Assembly: GCA_003225315.1 (NCBI GenBank)
Contig: QHZD01000004.1
Coordinates: 1 to 51,175 of the forward strand
Direction of reading: 5' to 3'
Origin: Acidobacteriota bacterium
Lineage (GTDB): Bacteria > Acidobacteriota > Terriglobia > Acidiferrales > UBA7541
DNA: 51,175 nucleotides
Translations under genes and position numbers: made by a program
Shown here: positions 2,590 through 27,418 of the stretch, one piece after another
How positions within the stretch are numbered: position 1 is the first letter of the stretch
How the letters are laid out: every line of letters starts with the position of its first letter
The notes under the pieces: model-generated
What the model was told of the DNA's origin: nothing
Seen by the model: the letters and a program-made list of their open reading frames with translations, nothing else
The model's database searches: none

Positions 2590-5181
2590 ATGGCCGCAGA
2601 CGTAAGCAAACATCTGGATCGCGCCAAGCGCTTCCTCGAGAAGAACCGCGTCGAGGACGCCATCGTGGCGTATCTCGCCGTGCTCGACGAGTCGCCGCAG
2701 CACCAGGAAGCCACGCAAGCGCTCGGCGATCTCTACGCACGGATGGACCAGCCGGACCGAGCGGCTGTTTACTACGGCCTGCTGTTTGATTTGCTGGTCG
2801 ATCCAAAGGACGAGACCAAGGCGCTGGCTATCTACAACCGCTTTCTGCGCGCTGGCCGGGGGCAGCCGCCCGAGCGCATCGCTCGATACGCCTTCCTGCA
2901 ACAAAAACAGAATCATCCCGAGGAAGCCATTGAGCAGTACACGAAAGCCGCGGAGCTATTCGCGGCCGCGAACCGTGATGAGGACGCGCTCTTCTGCTGG
3001 GAGCGGCTCTCGCAGCTCGACCCGGAAAATCTGTCGCGGCAGCTTCGTCTTGCGGAAGGAGCCGAACGCATCGGCAAGAATGCTCTGGCCGCGCGAGCGT
3101 TTTTGCGGGCCGGGCAGCTTGCTTCGGCGAGCGGCGCATCCGCGGATGCGCTGCAAATTCTTGGCCGCGCGTACAAACTTGCGCCGCAAGAACGCAGCGT
3201 GGCATTGCTGTACGCCCAGGCAAACATGCAGACGGGAAACGCCGTACGTGCTGCCACCCTGCTGGAACCTTTTGCCGCATCCGAAAGCGACGCGGCCTTT
3301 CTCGTAACATTTAGCGACGCGCTGATGCGATCGGGAAGCCTTGAACGCGCGAGAGGGCTACTGGAGCGTCTTCTCCGAGAAAAAAATGAAGGCGTAACCC
3401 ATCTGTTCGAACTCGCGGATCGTTACGTCGCCGCGGGTCAGGATCAGAAAGCAACTGAAGTCCTGTTGTTGCTGAAGCGGCGGATGTTTGCCGACAAAAA
3501 GCAAAATGAATTCGTGGCGTTGATGGATGGCGTGGGCGCCAAATATCCGCATTCGCAGACGATTCTTGAATTCTGGGCGTCCATCCACAATGAATTGAAC
3601 CGCGAATCGCAATATTTCGAAGTGCTCATCAAGCTGTTCGATGTGTACCTTACGTCGGGAGACGTTAAGAAGGCGGCGGAGTCCCTCGAGAGGCTGGTGG
3701 ACATCGACGCGTACGACTTCCGCAATCAAGAGAGGATGGAACTGCTGCGCGGCAAAGTGGACGAGGGCCAGCTGAAACGGATTGCCAGCCGACTATTGAA
3801 GTCCGGCACTCCGACGCCGGGGCACGCTTCCCATGCGCATCACGCGGCGGCTACTCCAGCTCCTACTCCCGGCAGTGAAGAGGGCCGGCAAGTGCAGGCA
3901 CTGGAAGACTTGATCGTGCAGACAGAGATTTTTTTGCAGTACTCGCTGCATAACAAGGCGCTGGAGCGCCTGCAAAAAATCGCGGCGATATTCCCCGGAG
4001 AAGAAGAACGGAACGCGCGGCTTTCCAATCTCTACCAAATGGCGAACTGGTGGCCCCAGGGAGCGCCGCCCAAGCCTAAGACAAGTCCTGCCACCGTAGC
4101 GGCCGCACCGGTCGCACGCGTCGAAGAGGCGCCTTCGCCTATCACCACGAAAACCGGAGTGTATTCAGCGGAGACGTTGCGGGATCTTTCCAAGATTTCC
4201 GAGGTCAACCAAAAAATATTCCGTCAGCAGACGCCGCGAGCGATGCTGAACACAACTGTCAGCGAAGTGGGCACCTATCTGCGCGGAACTCGCGCGCTGG
4301 CCGTTGTCGGCGCACCAGGGAGGCCGCCGGAAATGGCCGCGGAGTTTTGCGCGCCTGGAGTGAAGCCTGCGCCTGGCGCACAGGTGGTGCTGCTTCTCGC
4401 GCACATCGAGAAGGCGGAGCCGGACGAACTCGGCGGGCTGGTGGTGCAGGCGTCCGAGGGATCGATTTTGAGTGATCTGGGGCTGGCGACGGCGCTGGGC
4501 GTGATGATCATGGACAAAGAGACGCAGATGCCAGCGGGAATGTTGATCGTAGGACATGCCGAAGACCACAAGTGGAAGCCGAATGAGGCTTATTTCCTGC
4601 AAGCTATCGGCGACCAGATGCTGATGAGCGTGAGCCACACGCGGCTGCGGTCGCTGGTGCGGCGCATGGGCGTTTCCGATGACCGTTCCGGCTTGCTGAG
4701 CCGCAGCTCGTACCAGAGTTGTTTGCTGACGGAGGCGGACCGCGCGCGGACGCAGGCGACGCCGCTGGCGCTGACGATTCTGCAGATTGACCACGGGGCG
4801 GAATTGCTGAGGCAGCAAGGAGAGTCGCCGCTGGAGCGATTTTTAGAGCAACTGGCGCGGTCGTTGCAGCCGATCGTGCGGCAGAACGACGTGGCGGTAA
4901 AATATACGTCGTGGTCGCTGGCGTTTATTCTGCCGGATACGACTTTGGCGGGGGCGCAGAACCTGGCGGATAAACTGCGGCGCGCGGCGAGCGGGCTGCG
5001 GCCGCCATGGGACTCGACTCAGATTACGCTGAGCGCGGGAATCGTCGAAGCCGTGCCGAAGCATGAGTTCGACAGCGAGGATATTGTGACGGACTTGATC
5101 AATCGCGCGGAGTTTTCGATTGAAGAGGCGAGGAAGCGCGGCGGGGATACGGTGGTGGCGCTCGAAACGCCAAAGCCTTAG
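2590..5181 (+). CDS. TPR-GAF-degenerate GGDEF signalling protein
   Basis: An 863-residue protein without signal peptide or membrane segments. The first roughly 400 residues are helical TPR-like repeats (for example EDAIVAYLAVLDESPQHQEA and EEAIEQYTKAAELFAAANRD). A His/Pro/Ala-rich linker follows, then more TPR, then a GAF-like domain (about 545-690) and a C-terminal domain with the length and ends of a diguanylate cyclase (about 700-855, ending in the typical IEEARKRGGDTVV). Where active cyclases have GGDEF this protein has TSWSL (about 773-777, inside KYTSWSLAFILPDT), so it should not make c-di-GMP; it may bind nucleotide or act as a scaffold. The frame opens at a GTG (2494), but ATG 2590 starts directly before the first TPR helix. 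Domain limits are by eye. Confidence 0.75.
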   Translation: MAADVSKHLDRAKRFLEKNRVEDAIVAYLAVLDESPQHQEATQALGDLYARMDQPDRAAVYYGLLFDLLVDPKDETKALAIYNRFLRAGRGQPPERIARYAFLQQKQNHPEEAIEQYTKAAELFAAANRDEDALFCWERLSQLDPENLSRQLRLAEGAERIGKNALAARAFLRAGQLASASGASADALQILGRAYKLAPQERSVALLYAQANMQTGNAVRAATLLEPFAASESDAAFLVTFSDALMRSGSLERARGLLERLLREKNEGVTHLFELADRYVAAGQDQKATEVLLLLKRRMFADKKQNEFVALMDGVGAKYPHSQTILEFWASIHNELNRESQYFEVLIKLFDVYLTSGDVKKAAESLERLVDIDAYDFRNQERMELLRGKVDEGQLKRIASRLLKSGTPTPGHASHAHHAAATPAPTPGSEEGRQVQALEDLIVQTEIFLQYSLHNKALERLQKIAAIFPGEEERNARLSNLYQMANWWPQGAPPKPKTSPATVAAAPVARVEEAPSPITTKTGVYSAETLRDLSKISEVNQKIFRQQTPRAMLNTTVSEVGTYLRGTRALAVVGAPGRPPEMAAEFCAPGVKPAPGAQVVLLLAHIEKAEPDELGGLVVQASEGSILSDLGLATALGVMIMDKETQMPAGMLIVGHAEDHKWKPNEAYFLQAIGDQMLMSVSHTRLRSLVRRMGVSDDRSGLLSRSSYQSCLLTEADRARTQATPLALTILQIDHGAELLRQQGESPLERFLEQLARSLQPIVRQNDVAVKYTSWSLAFILPDTTLAGAQNLADKLRRAASGLRPPWDSTQITLSAGIVEAVPKHEFDSEDIVTDLINRAEFSIEEARKRGGDTVVALETPKP

Positions 5182-23545: not shown

Positions 23546-23944
23546 TCAGCCCATCGAACTGGCTTTTTGCGGTTCGATTTTGTAGGTGACGCGCACTTCG
23601 CCTGGCTGGCGGAAAGGATAGATGGGTTTGCCAAGATATTTTTGCGAGAGCTTGTTGATGTGGTCGTCGGCGCCTTTTTCCGTGATTTCGACGACGCGGC
23701 CGCGGACTTCCAAGTAACGATACGGGTTCGCGGGATCCTGGAGCGAAATCGAAACGCGAGGATCGCGCCGGACATTTTTATCCTTCACGCGGCCCTTCGC
23801 TGAATTAAAGCGAACGAATTTGCCGTCGTAATCCACCCAGACGGGCGTCACTTGCGGGCTTCCATCCGTCATCAGCGTCCCGAGATTTCCAAACGCCGGC
23901 TTCTCGAGCAAGTCCTTGTGGCTTTCTGGAATCACCTGGCTCAT
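23546..23944 (-). CDS. PPOX-class F420-dependent oxidoreductase
   Basis: A 132-residue split-barrel flavin/deazaflavin-binding protein of the pyridoxamine-phosphate-oxidase-like superfamily. The blocks GTLMTDGSPQVTPVWVDYDG, RFNSAKGRVKDKNVRRDPRV, NPYRYLEVRGRVVEITEKGA and PFRQPGEVRVTYKI match the subgroup annotated as F420-dependent in actinobacteria. Members reduce or oxidise small molecules with coenzyme F420. It is the last gene of a leftward operon that also carries two F420 biosynthesis genes (cofH, cofC), which supports F420 rather than FMN as cofactor. It starts 18 bp after scoB. Confidence 0.85.
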   Translation of the reverse strand: MSQVIPESHKDLLEKPAFGNLGTLMTDGSPQVTPVWVDYDGKFVRFNSAKGRVKDKNVRRDPRVSISLQDPANPYRYLEVRGRVVEITEKGADDHINKLSQKYLGKPIYPFRQPGEVRVTYKIEPQKASSMG

Positions 23945-23962
23945 ATCGGCCTCCTCCCCAAA

Positions 23963-24709
23963 TTATGCAAAACTCATTTCCGGAATTTGCCGGCGGACGA
24001 TCAGTGGCGCGCCGGTCAACGCTTGGACTTCTTCCGCGCTCCAGCAGGGAGCCACTTCGCGCAGGAGCAATCCTTCCGGCTTCACGTCGATCACGGCAAG
24101 ATCCGTGACGATAGTGTCCACACATTCAAGAGCAGTCAGCGGATAGGTGCATCGCTTCACGATTTTCGGCGCGCCATCTTTCGTGCTGTGTTCCATGCAG
24201 ACGATTAAGGTTTTGGCGCCCGCCGCGATGTCCATCGCGCCGCCGATTCCACCAGGGCCTTTCGCACCGGGAATTCTCCAGTTCGCAAGGTCGCCCTTTT
24301 CTGAAACTTGAAATCCCCCAAGCACGGCGACGTCGAGATGCCCACCGCGGGTCATCACATGCGCATCCGCTTGATGAAAAAAAGAAGCTCCCGGAATCAG
24401 CGTGACGGGCACTTTCATGGCGTCGACCAGGTCGAAGTCTTCCTCGCCGGGTTTTGCGCGCGGCCCCATTCCCAAAATTCCATTTTCGCTGTGGAAATAA
24501 ACGGTGATTCCTTTGGGCAAATGGCCGGCGATGAGATTGGGAATCCCCCACCCGAGGTTCACATAGGCGCCATCCGGCAATTCAAGCGCGGCGCGTTGCG
24601 CGATTTGTTCGCGCGTCAATCGCGGCTTGGCGATGCCGCCAGCCGGCATCACCTTTTCCGAAATGCCGTTACGCGGCATACCGATTCTCGGAATGCCGTC
24701 ACTCGGCAT
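23963..24709 (-). CDS. scoB: 3-oxoacid CoA-transferase subunit B
   Basis: The catalytic subunit of a two-subunit CoA transferase that moves CoA between succinyl- or acetyl-CoA and a 3-oxo or short-chain acid. The active-site glutamate lies in SENGILGMGP (E75 with this start), and NLGWGIPNL, KVPVTLIPGA-like and GGAMDIAAGAK blocks fit SCOT beta. The first 30 residues are a threefold 10-residue repeat (MPSDGIPRIG, MPRNGISEKV, MPAGGIAKPR), encoded by a 30-bp palindromic DNA repeat that gives three in-frame ATGs (24709, 24679, 24649). The 24709 ATG has the best ribosome site (AAAAGGA, about 7 nt), while the family start resembles the third (IAKPRLTREQIAQRAA). It overlaps scoA by 11 nt. Confidence 0.88.
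   Translation of the reverse strand: MPSDGIPRIGMPRNGISEKVMPAGGIAKPRLTREQIAQRAALELPDGAYVNLGWGIPNLIAGHLPKGITVYFHSENGILGMGPRAKPGEEDFDLVDAMKVPVTLIPGASFFHQADAHVMTRGGHLDVAVLGGFQVSEKGDLANWRIPGAKGPGGIGGAMDIAAGAKTLIVCMEHSTKDGAPKIVKRCTYPLTALECVDTIVTDLAVIDVKPEGLLLREVAPCWSAEEVQALTGAPLIVRRQIPEMSFA
24632..24709. repeat. Three tandem 30-bp palindromic repeats at the scoB start
   Basis: Each unit carries an ATGCCG-N5-CGGCAT inverted repeat: 24633-24649 (extended by one more base pair), 24663-24679 and 24693-24709. The left arms start exactly 30 bp apart. Because 30 is divisible by 3, each unit gives an in-frame ATG for scoB and a 10-residue protein repeat starting MP-x-x-GI. The scoA stop codon (24699-24701) lies in the loop of the third palindrome. 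Confidence 0.85.
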
Positions 24710-25376
24710 AGCGGATTCCTTTTGCTTGCACGATGCGATGAACGAAGATCGCGGGAGTCACGACGTGTTCCGGATGGATAGCGCCGATCGGAACGATTTC
24801 TTCTACTTCGGCGATGGTGGTCTGCGCGGCCATGGCCATAATGGGATTGAAATTTCTTGCCGCCAGCCGATAGGTCAAATTTCCCAGCTCATCGGCAGTC
24901 TGCGCCTTGATCAGCGCATAATCAGCGTGAATCGGCCGTTCGAGAATGCAGCGGCGTTCTTCGAGGACGCGCTCTTCCTTTCCTGCGGCAACTTCCGTGC
25001 CTACGCCCACCGTGGTGTAGAAACCTTGCAGACCAGCAGCGGCAGCGCGCATGCGCTCGCACAAAATGCCTTGCGGGACGAGTTCCAGCGTCACTTCCTT
25101 GGCGGCGAAACGTTCCAGAAAATGATTGGCGTGCGGTCCGGGAAAAGCGGCAATCACGTGCTTGATCTGATTGTTCTTGAACATGATTCCAAGCTCGCCG
25201 TCACGCGTCCCGCAATTGTTGCTGACAGCAGTGATGTTCTTCGCGCCTTTCCGCGCCAACGCTTGAATGAGGTTATTTGGAAAGCCCGCGCCTCCGAATC
25301 CCCCGACCATGATTTGCGCGCCATCGGGAATATCCGCGACGGCTTCGTCGAGGCTGGCGTAGACTTTCTTCTTCAA
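24699..25376 (-). CDS. scoA: 3-oxoacid CoA-transferase subunit A
   Basis: A 225-residue partner of subunit B. The N-terminal KKKVYASLDEAVADIPDGAQ and the glycine-rich VGGFGGAGFPNNL are characteristic of SCOT alpha, as are AVSNNCGTRDGELGI and LVPQGILCERMRAAAAG. The start is taken at TTG 25376, where the family's conserved N-terminus begins; GTG 25406 is possible. Neither start has a strong ribosome site, so translation may be coupled to cofC, whose reading frame runs 104 nt into this gene. Together with scoB it would activate a short-chain acid for degradation or return acyl groups. It is embedded in an F420-related operon. Confidence 0.88.
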   Translation of the reverse strand: MKKKVYASLDEAVADIPDGAQIMVGGFGGAGFPNNLIQALARKGAKNITAVSNNCGTRDGELGIMFKNNQIKHVIAAFPGPHANHFLERFAAKEVTLELVPQGILCERMRAAAAGLQGFYTTVGVGTEVAAGKEERVLEERRCILERPIHADYALIKAQTADELGNLTYRLAARNFNPIMAMAAQTTIAEVEEIVPIGAIHPEHVVTPAIFVHRIVQAKGIRYAE

Positions 25377-26034
25377 TGTTGGGCAGGAATCTCGCCGCAA
25401 CACCACTCGCGTGCAGCCAGCGTCCGGTTTCCGTTGCGCTCAAATCGTGCTCGAGCAGGGCGCGCAAATCGGCCTCGTCGTCCACATCCATCTCCAGCCG
25501 GACATTGCGGCGCACGATTACCTGGGCCTGGGAATTTTCGGCTTCGGCAAGGTGCTTCGCGAAACTTCCGTTTCCAAAGTGTGACGGGAACAGGGTGGGC
25601 GGTGTTCGCAACATGGCGTTTGTGCCGGTGCCGTCACGCGAGGGAACAATTACGAGGGAGGGCGCTCGGCATTCAACGGCGAGCAGTTCGTCGATGTCGG
25701 CCGATTGAATAAGCGGCAAATCCAAGGGCAGGCGCAGCAATCCGCTGACGCCCCTATGCTCGCAGAGCTTCGAAGCGGCGTCCACGGAATGGCTCTCGGA
25801 AATTTGCCACTCCTCGCGCAGAATCTCCCAGCCGTTTTCTTCGGCTAATTGCATGGCGGGCTCGTAATTCGTGATGACAAAGATCCTGTCAGCGCGGCGC
25901 ACGCCTTGGACAGCGCGAACGGTGTCCGCAAGCATGGTCTCGGCCAATGAAAAGCGTTCTTCCGGCGTCAGCACGCCGATCAATCTCGTCTTCGCATTAC
26001 GCAGATCTTTGACTGGCAAGAGGAGTGCTCGCAT
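25273..26034 (-). CDS. cofC: 2-phospho-L-lactate guanylyltransferase (F420 biosynthesis)
   Basis: The 253-residue product matches CofC/FbiD, which condenses GTP with 2-phospholactate, PEP or 3-phosphoglycerate to start the F420 side chain. Visible family blocks: LLPVKDLRNAKTRLIGVLTP (N-terminal nucleotide site), RLPLDLPLI (the DLP metal site), VIVPSRDGTGTNAMLRTPP and GNGSFAKHLAEA, then LEMDVDDEADL. The normal end would be shortly after that last block. The final roughly 33 residues (Arg-rich, RQPRRSRRGYSRWRANHG) are the out-of-frame reading of the start of scoA, so a stop codon has probably been lost or a frameshift exists. Nine bp separate it from cofH. Confidence 0.88.
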   Translation of the reverse strand: MRALLLPVKDLRNAKTRLIGVLTPEERFSLAETMLADTVRAVQGVRRADRIFVITNYEPAMQLAEENGWEILREEWQISESHSVDAASKLCEHRGVSGLLRLPLDLPLIQSADIDELLAVECRAPSLVIVPSRDGTGTNAMLRTPPTLFPSHFGNGSFAKHLAEAENSQAQVIVRRNVRLEMDVDDEADLRALLEHDLSATETGRWLHASGVAARFLPNIEEESLRQPRRSRRGYSRWRANHGRGIRRRGLSK

Positions 26035-26043
26035 GGGAGTCGC

Positions 26044-27282
26044 TCAGTAGGCGCCTTCCGGGTACGTTACGTTGTTATCCGCACGGACCATCGGGAGTTG
26101 CGGCGGGGCTGTTGGTGGATGGTGTTCAGGATTGTCAAAGACGCGCCGGATTGTGTAGGTGGTCGTGCGTTCCGCTGGGACTCGTCCAATCGATCGAATC
26201 TTCGCGCGAAATTCTTCAGGCGACACATATTCTCCGAATGTTGCGCCAGCAGCTTTGGAAATATTTTCTTCCATGAGCGTCCCGCTGAAATCGTTTGCGC
26301 CTGCTTGCAGGCACGCGAGCGACGTTTCGAATCCGAGCTTCACCCAGGACACCTGTAAGTTCTTTATCGCTCCGTGCAGGAGCACTCGCGCCAAAGCATG
26401 CACGCGCAGGTGCTCTTCCCGTTTGGCGCCCGGCCTGGCTCCGCCGTGACGGTAAAGCCGCGTATTCTCATGAATGAATCCTAGCGGCACGAACTCCGTG
26501 AATCCACCGGTGCGTTTTTGGATCGAGCGCAATAAGAGGATGTGACGCACCCAATCGGCGGGCTCTTCGACGTGGCCATACATCATGGTTGAAGTCGTGG
26601 GAATGCCCAGTTCGTGCGCGGCGGAGATAATTTCCACCCATCGCGCGGCCGGTAATTTGTTGGGACTCAGTTCCTTTCGGACGCTATCATCGAGGATTTC
26701 CGCGGCCGTGCCGGGAATGCTGCCCAGCCCCTCGTCTTTCATCATTTGCAAGTAGTCGCGCAGCACCATTCCGGTTTTCGTGACGCCGTAATCGATTTCC
26801 ATCGGCGAGAACGCATGCACATGCATTTCAGGGATGGCGCGCTTGATGGCGCGGAGCAGATCGCGGTAGAAAAATCCATCGAGGTCGCGCGGCAGCCCGC
26901 CTTGGACGCAAACTTCCGTGGCGCCGCGTTCCCAGGCTTCGCAAACGCGGCGAACAACTTCACCGAAGGAGAGCGAGTAGGCGTCGGCGGCTCCGGGGCC
27001 GCGTCCAAAGCCGCAAAAACTGCATCCGACGAAACAGACATTCGTGAAATTGATGTTTCGATTTACGACGTAAGTGATGGCGTGGCCGACGGTTTCTCGG
27101 CGCAATTGATCGGCGAAGACAACGAGAGCTTCCAGCGCTGAACCTTCCGCTGTCGCGAGGATCAATCCTTGTTCGAACGTCAACTCCTCGCCTGAAGCCG
27201 CGGCGTGTAGAGTCTCGCGAATCTCCGCCGGACAGGCTTCCGCCGCCGGTATGCTGCTTCCGTTGATCGCGGGCGTAGCCAT
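26044..27282 (-). CDS. cofH: FO synthase subunit 2 (radical SAM, F420 biosynthesis)
   Basis: A 412-residue radical SAM enzyme. The cluster motif is CFVGCSFC (C83, C87, C90), preceded by YVVNRNINFTNVC, the shared opening of CofH/MqnE/MqnC proteins. EVCVQGGLPRDLDG, FSPMEIDYG, FVPLGFIHENTRLYR and AGANDFSGTLMEENIS indicate CofH rather than the menaquinone enzymes. With CofG it joins tyrosine and a diaminouracil to make 7,8-didemethyl-8-hydroxy-5-deazariboflavin, the F420 chromophore; cofG is not in this window. It is the first gene of the leftward operon and is separated by 136 bp from the divergent cytochrome c gene, where its promoter must lie. Confidence 0.88.
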   Translation of the reverse strand: MATPAINGSSIPAAEACPAEIRETLHAAASGEELTFEQGLILATAEGSALEALVVFADQLRRETVGHAITYVVNRNINFTNVCFVGCSFCGFGRGPGAADAYSLSFGEVVRRVCEAWERGATEVCVQGGLPRDLDGFFYRDLLRAIKRAIPEMHVHAFSPMEIDYGVTKTGMVLRDYLQMMKDEGLGSIPGTAAEILDDSVRKELSPNKLPAARWVEIISAAHELGIPTTSTMMYGHVEEPADWVRHILLLRSIQKRTGGFTEFVPLGFIHENTRLYRHGGARPGAKREEHLRVHALARVLLHGAIKNLQVSWVKLGFETSLACLQAGANDFSGTLMEENISKAAGATFGEYVSPEEFRAKIRSIGRVPAERTTTYTIRRVFDNPEHHPPTAPPQLPMVRADNNVTYPEGAY

Positions 27283-27418
27283 TTCCTGTGTATCCTACCA
27301 GAGGAAGCCGCTCTCCGACTCACATCGGCGAGCGAAATGAAGAGGCCGCACCACTGTTAGGCCCGAAGATTCGCCACTGGCCGCGCTGGACCTCATCCAT
27401 TACCATACACGCAAAGCC

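Follow-up and report, generated by a model that had tools for sequence, protein, structure and literature searches.

Acidobacteria are listed among the phyla that encode genes for biosynthesis of the cofactor F420 in a 2021 review (PMC8498797), whose passage on the phylum gives neither an operon structure nor a scoAB neighbour. The pathway to which we compare our locus consists of CofG, CofH, CofC, CofD and CofE, in the form that has separate cofG and cofH genes and a stand-alone cofE. In Mycetohabitans, the CofC that serves 3-phosphoglycerate (3PG)-type F420 is marked by a serine at S162 and a histidine at H145 (PMC8764529), and the known dehydro-F420 reductases are proteins of the FMN nitroreductase family (PMC8498797). 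MSMEG_3380 (structure 3F7E) is an F420H2-dependent FDR-B reductase that was assayed on aflatoxins (PMC3034190). Here we analyzed a window of 51,175 nucleotides, contig C3 of a draft Acidobacteriota genome (G000; 4.98 Mb in 57 contigs), in which cofH and cofC are followed by the genes for both subunits of a 3-oxoacid coenzyme A (CoA)-transferase, scoAB, and for a PPOX-class reductase. The window probably carries one of the two loci that make up a complete F420 system of a subdivision-2 acidobacterium, with scoAB being a conserved neighbour that has no need of F420.

The window carries one of two F420 loci

Five leftward genes and the intergenic region ahead of them make up the locus. Family assignments were made with curated NCBIfam models, each with its own cut-off; G, C and L numbers denote genomes, contigs and loci, G000 being the window's own genome.

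26044 to 27282, minus strand: cofH, FO synthase subunit 2 (5-amino-6-(D-ribitylamino)uracil--L-tyrosine 4-hydroxyphenyl transferase), 412 amino acids (aa); TIGR03551, 490.7 bits (cut-off 374.1)
25273 to 26034, minus strand: cofC, guanylyltransferase, open reading frame (ORF) of 253 aa; TIGR03552, 140.5 bits (cut-off 105)
24699 to 25406, minus strand: scoA, 3-oxoacid CoA-transferase subunit A; TIGR02429, 271 bits (cut-off 128.5)
23963 to 24709, minus strand: scoB, 3-oxoacid CoA-transferase subunit B; TIGR02428, 286.5 bits (cut-off 243.55); SENG motif, which we take to be the catalytic-glutamate motif, intact
23546 to 23944, minus strand: PPOX-class FDR-B/Rv1155-type reductase, probably F420H2-dependent; TIGR03618, 117.4 bits (cut-off 79.05)
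27283 to 27418, no strand: region between cofH and a divergent cytochrome-c-type gene, the presumed promoter region of the operon from the gene positions

The initial annotation of this DNA had called these five genes and described their gaps or overlaps as shorter than 20 bp except between cofC and scoA. Each gene lies at the position given and exceeds its curated cut-off, CofC passing its own profile as well, and the coordinates give a 9-bp gap between cofH and cofC, an 11-bp overlap of scoA with scoB and an 18-bp gap between scoB and the PPOX gene. CofH as a menaquinone enzyme is ruled out: the protein scores under the cut-off for both MqnC (345.4; cut-off 428.1) and MqnE (295.5; cut-off 434.55), and in a tree it clusters with the CofH proteins of its genus and family, within a CofH group that is separated from two MqnC/MqnE-like copies of G000 with support of 100/99. 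The label of these two copies rests on matches to the CofH model under its cut-off.

The genes cofG, cofD and cofE, which lie outside the window, were recovered by a profile search of G000 in a single run, cofE-cofG-cofD, at G000:C17:86794-89693, each of them over its cut-off (cofG 468.9, cofD 323.6 and cofE 289.1 bits). A gene for an npdG-type NADPH:F420 reductase stands 3.6 kb from this run (C17:82551-83198; 229.1 bits, cut-off 149.8). The frames of all five cof genes, of npdG and of the PPOX gene are open, with no inner stops. Thus, the F420 gene set of G000 is complete-looking and split over two loci, cofE-cofG-cofD on C17 and cofH-cofC in the window, and because the remaining pathway genes are present on C17, synthesis of F420 by G000 is likely. 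Relative to the described pathway, all five genes are represented over curated cut-offs, whereas the arrangement in two loci and the presence of scoAB and PPOX after cofC depart from it. Of 10 family members that belong to other genera, 8 have cofH, cofD and cofC side by side, unlike the split seen here.

The top match of CofC in the PDB, 7p97, suggested an enzyme of the 3PG-F420 type. Judged by the published diagnostic residues this is ruled out, since the window CofC aligns G154 and T136 to S162 and H145 of the Mycetohabitans 3PG enzyme, G154 being invariant in 8/8 aligned proteins. From these two residues, phosphoenolpyruvate (PEP) or 2-phospholactate is the likelier precursor.

A scan of named genomes by CofC alignment returned 71 loci. 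The closest named genome is Acidobacteria bacterium 13_2_20CM_57_17 (91% identity); among those that come next are ‘Candidatus Acidiferrum typicum’ (72%), Terriglobia bins and numerous assemblies of subdivision 2 (gp2). By this measure the nearest named genomes are those of Acidobacteriota subdivision 2, in line with the Acidobacteriota-like origin proposed initially. The novelty that had been attached to F420 genes in such an organism was overstated. Their presence at the level of the phylum agrees with the 2021 review (PMC8498797), and CofC scored over its cut-off in 59 genomes of 200 taken as an even draw from the class rather than the whole class, so that F420 genes are common there. The present gene order was absent from the titles and abstract starts returned by searches of open-licence literature on F420 with CoA-transferase, Acidobacteria and gene neighborhood.

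PPOX follows the F420 genes and scoAB does not

The closest solved chain to the window PPOX is 3f7e, i.e., MSMEG_3380 (E 5.7e-24; 44 of 107 aligned residues identical). The protein exceeds the TIGR03618 cut-off for FDR-B/Rv1155-type reductases and differs from MSMEG_3380 in being acidobacterial and encoded in an operon with cofC. Its distribution was scored in 28 genomes: 23 with cofD and cofE, four F420-less genomes (G102, G138, G146 and G196) with no cof gene over cut-off, and G064, which has cofH, cofC and PPOX with none of cofG, cofD and cofE over cut-off. PPOX was found over the TIGR03618 cut-off in 24 of the 28, these being the 23 and G064, and in 0/4 of the F420-less genomes, three of which have weaker matches; with G064 counted as F420-positive, presence of PPOX matches that of the F420 genes in 28/28 genomes. 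The proposal that PPOX probably uses F420 is thereby reinforced, both by the F420H2 dependence of its nearest solved relative and by this distribution (24/24 versus 0/4), and we conclude likewise that the window PPOX probably uses F420H2. The npdG gene was over cut-off in 18/19 F420-positive genomes (G158 being without it) and in G064, and in 0/4 F420-less genomes. Luciferase-like proteins were present in 19/19 F420-positive genomes and G064, and in none of G138, G146 and G196; because the F420-less G102 has two copies, a strict link with F420 is unlikely. G000 encodes three, one over the TIGR03842 cut-off and two over no cut-off in the scan.

The conserved order of scoAB with cofC, to which the initial annotation had pointed, is found in close relatives. 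The genus sample with cofC numbers 16 (the window and 15 further stretches), and the order cofH-cofC-scoA-scoB-PPOX occurs in 10 of them, with scoA frame-broken in G150. Three F420-positive members have cofH-cofC-PPOX without scoAB (G154, G158 and G194), two have cofH-cofC with neither scoAB nor PPOX as neighbours (G005 and G022), and one has cofC alone (G190). Elsewhere in the family scoAB follows cofC in 3/10 genomes (G106, G182 and, across a gap of ~675 bp, G014), and outside the family in 0/10, the contig of G002 stopping just past cofC. Among the 71 named loci, cofC stands with scoA and scoB in 21, and L101 is additionally cut off inside scoA; several of these loci come from assemblies already counted above, and L129, L130 and L169 are without a family assignment. 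The adjacency is therefore conserved among close relatives and not seen further out.

In a ScoA tree most proteins fall into two clades, the long-branched copies of G081 and G094 belonging to neither. G000 has one copy per clade; the window copy, in clade B, and the second one, at C29, share 48% identity. Clade B is also represented in the F420-less G138, G146 and G196, at a matching locus that consists of metallo-beta-lactamase-fold and hypothetical genes, scoB and scoA, and then TetR and mod genes (modA being outside the G146 stretch). PPOX, cofC and cofH are absent from these three loci, and remnants of them at L079-L081 were looked for with only chance-level scores. At L079, L080 and L081 TetR lies between scoA and mod, where F420-positive relatives have cofC-cofH, cytochrome-c and DUF5666 genes, and in G138 a TonB-type ORF occupies part of the gap. 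G190, at the locus in question, has PPOX-scoB-scoA without cofHC. Clade-B scoA is present in 14/23 F420-positive and 3/4 F420-less genomes (Fisher p = 1; the Fisher tables omit G064 and take no account of kinship among genomes). In this count the frameshifted scoA of G150, too short for the tree, was scored as present and G022 as lacking; counting the two contig-end fragments of G022 gives 15/23, with p = 1 having been computed for 14/23. The sole scoA of G194 is of clade A. Thus, presence of clade-B ScoA is independent of the F420 genes; PPOX tracks these genes and scoAB does not.

By family, the window scoAB appears to be an ordinary 3-oxoacid CoA-transferase. Both subunits exceed the family cut-offs, as expected for 3-oxoacid (succinyl-CoA) CoA-transferases of the ScoAB/PcaIJ kind, and their best solved matches are SCOT-type enzymes; the models leave the substrate unfixed, and it is the location in an F420 operon that sets this pair apart. 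The placement had been read initially as a sign of an F420-dependent redox step coupled to acyl-CoA chemistry. Since scoAB and the F420 genes part in both directions, with three F420-less genomes retaining scoAB and three F420-positive relatives lacking it at the locus, this coupling is not favoured and was set aside as the principal reading.

Weighing a possible link between F420 and acyl-CoA chemistry

In the scheme that we propose, CofG and CofH would form FO, CofC and CofD would attach a phospho-C3 acid, of the PEP/2-phospholactate type by the two diagnostic residues, and CofE would add glutamates. NpdG would reduce F420 with NADPH, and PPOX would consume F420H2 on a probably unsaturated substrate. 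These activities are predicted from sequence. The scoAB genes, co-directional and probably co-transcribed, have kept their place beside cofC across several of the family's genera and would not need F420.

One argument for a closer tie comes from G005. Within ~50 kb of this genome (G005:C2:197000-250000; L186, L187 and L082) lie cofHC, clade-B scoAB, PPOX and three luciferase-like proteins, and the region also holds genes for an acyl-CoA ligase, the alpha subunit of electron-transfer flavoprotein (ETF), an Fe-S protein, an enoyl-CoA hydratase, thiolases, an acyl-CoA dehydrogenase and further CoA-transferases. In a relative, L122, the portion with the ETF, cofHC and hydratase genes recurs. One could imagine a single catabolic route, in which PPOX with F420H2 reduces an unsaturated acid or lactone, ScoAB makes the CoA ester, and cofHC is co-regulated for supply of the cofactor. 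It would account for the adjacency of cofC and scoAB in four genera and 21/71 named loci, for PPOX and scoAB remaining together in G190 without cofHC, and for their standing 4.7 kb apart in G005 amid acyl-CoA dehydrogenase, thiolase and CoA-transferase genes; moreover, MSMEG_3380 degrades lactone-containing aflatoxins using F420H2 (PMC3034190). The route is nonetheless unlikely, given the retention of scoAB in three F420-less genomes and of PPOX, without scoAB at the locus, in three F420-positive ones. In addition, the best PPOX match of G014, G106 and G182 is on another contig than cofC-scoAB, and no shared substrate of PPOX and ScoAB is known. Quite improbable, too, is the version in which F420 serves acyl catabolism, with PPOX saturating an enone, enoate or lactone, ScoAB adding CoA, and cofHC co-transcribed to match supply. 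If it were true, the compact operon would be what survives of a more extensive cluster in which genes for acyl-CoA catabolism and for F420 stood together, comparable to the G005 region.

Two further explanations concern the F420 genes themselves. That PPOX is the missing dehydro-F420 reductase, finishing the cofactor rather than using it, is consistent with its place near cofC, with a phyletic pattern identical to that of the F420 genes over 28 genomes, and with the PEP/2-phospholactate-type residues of CofC. No reductase of the FbiB C-terminal type (TIGR03553) was over cut-off in any of 24 genomes, four of them F420-less, a result obtained with a model that lacks a stand-alone FbiE positive control; the best G000 match is partial, at 24.6 bits. 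The two best leads for FbiE, in G150 and G005, were rejected as they score higher as BluB. We consider a finishing role for PPOX very improbable, because its nearest solved relative is a user of F420H2, the dehydro-F420 reductases described belong to the FMN nitroreductase family (PMC8498797), and a 2-phospholactate precursor would make a reductase unnecessary. Even less credible is the view that the pathway is idle, with F420 genes that are remnants or contaminants. The genome is a draft, and the cofC/scoA junction carries a 25-bp deletion unseen in relatives; however, the quality tool puts the genome at 97.64% complete and 0.67% contaminated, no inner stop interrupts the cof genes, npdG or PPOX, congeners carry the same genes, and in the CofH tree the window protein sits among those of its genus and family.

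Several points weigh against our reading of scoAB as a neighbour without need of F420 within a complete system. The G005 region possibly keeps an F420-acyl-CoA link for part of the lineage, and together with the adjacency of cofC and scoAB in four genera it speaks for some functional link. The F420-less keepers of scoAB, G138, G146 and G196, come out as a single clade of the ScoA tree and so represent about one loss event. If PEP is the substrate of CofC, a dehydro-F420 reductase is required, leaving one step unassigned, and the window sits in a draft assembly of many contigs. As to the direction of change, the F420-less trio lies inside the genus in the ScoA tree, with G005 branching earlier, which favours loss of F420 in the trio rather than late gain.

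The cofC/scoA overlap is derived

The long overlap of cofC and scoA is real in the present sequence, but derived. CofC measures 223-236 aa across the 15 congeners and 228-232 aa in the nine that have scoA behind it, and the scoA start is an ATG in eight of these nine, the ninth, G150, having the broken scoA. Compared with L100, the nearest relative, whose CofC has 228 aa, the window is missing a 25-bp stretch that contains both the stop codon of cofC and the ATG of scoA, with the junction at 25374-25378; it is because of this deletion that the overlap is long. The conserved core of CofC ends near 25400, and the last ~37 residues of the ORF are an out-of-frame tail. Accordingly, scoA of the window probably starts at TTG 25376 (104-bp overlap) or GTG 25406 (134 bp), the TTG being the probable true start from the position of the ATG in relatives. 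The deletion may be genuine or an assembly error. The overlap as a meaningful design is ruled out, since no relative examined has one like it. In G150, scoA is split into two frames (L046, around 4482-5094), which reflects a pseudogene or an assembly error.

cofC-positive genomes without FO-synthase genes over cut-off

In the class sample, 60 genomes were taken as cofC-positive, the 59 over cut-off and G044 under cut-off, and in nine of these no match to cofG or cofH reaches the cut-off: G190 (L051/L190/L093), G030 (L055), G106 (L060), G001 (L182), G002 (L069), G065 (L185), G039 (L184), G116 (L072) and G120 (L183). They carry cofD in 9/9 and cofE in 8/9, and seven have an npdG-like gene near cofC. 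The contig of G002 ends soon after cofC. Same-genus siblings of G065 and G039 do carry cofG and cofH, so that assembly gaps are possible in these two; gaps are harder to invoke for G030 (99% complete), G001 (97%), G002 (100%) and G190 (94%). Salvage of FO is a fair guess from these gene sets. Titles and abstract starts returned by searches of open-licence literature showed nothing on point for FO salvage, and a passage of PMC7554672 does no more than name cofG/H in a legend. If the absence of FO-synthase genes beside cofC, cofD and cofE is real, sharing of FO between bacteria becomes testable.

Significance for the lineage

With the present analysis, an acidobacterial lineage that is represented in the named-genome scan mostly by metagenome assemblies gains a well-supported set of F420 genes, in a phylum that the review passage names only as a carrier of such genes (PMC8498797). 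For that lineage, NpdG now stands as the likely F420 reductase and PPOX as a likely user. The gains and losses at this single locus, where PPOX goes with F420 and scoAB does not, call for caution in inferring function from one operon.

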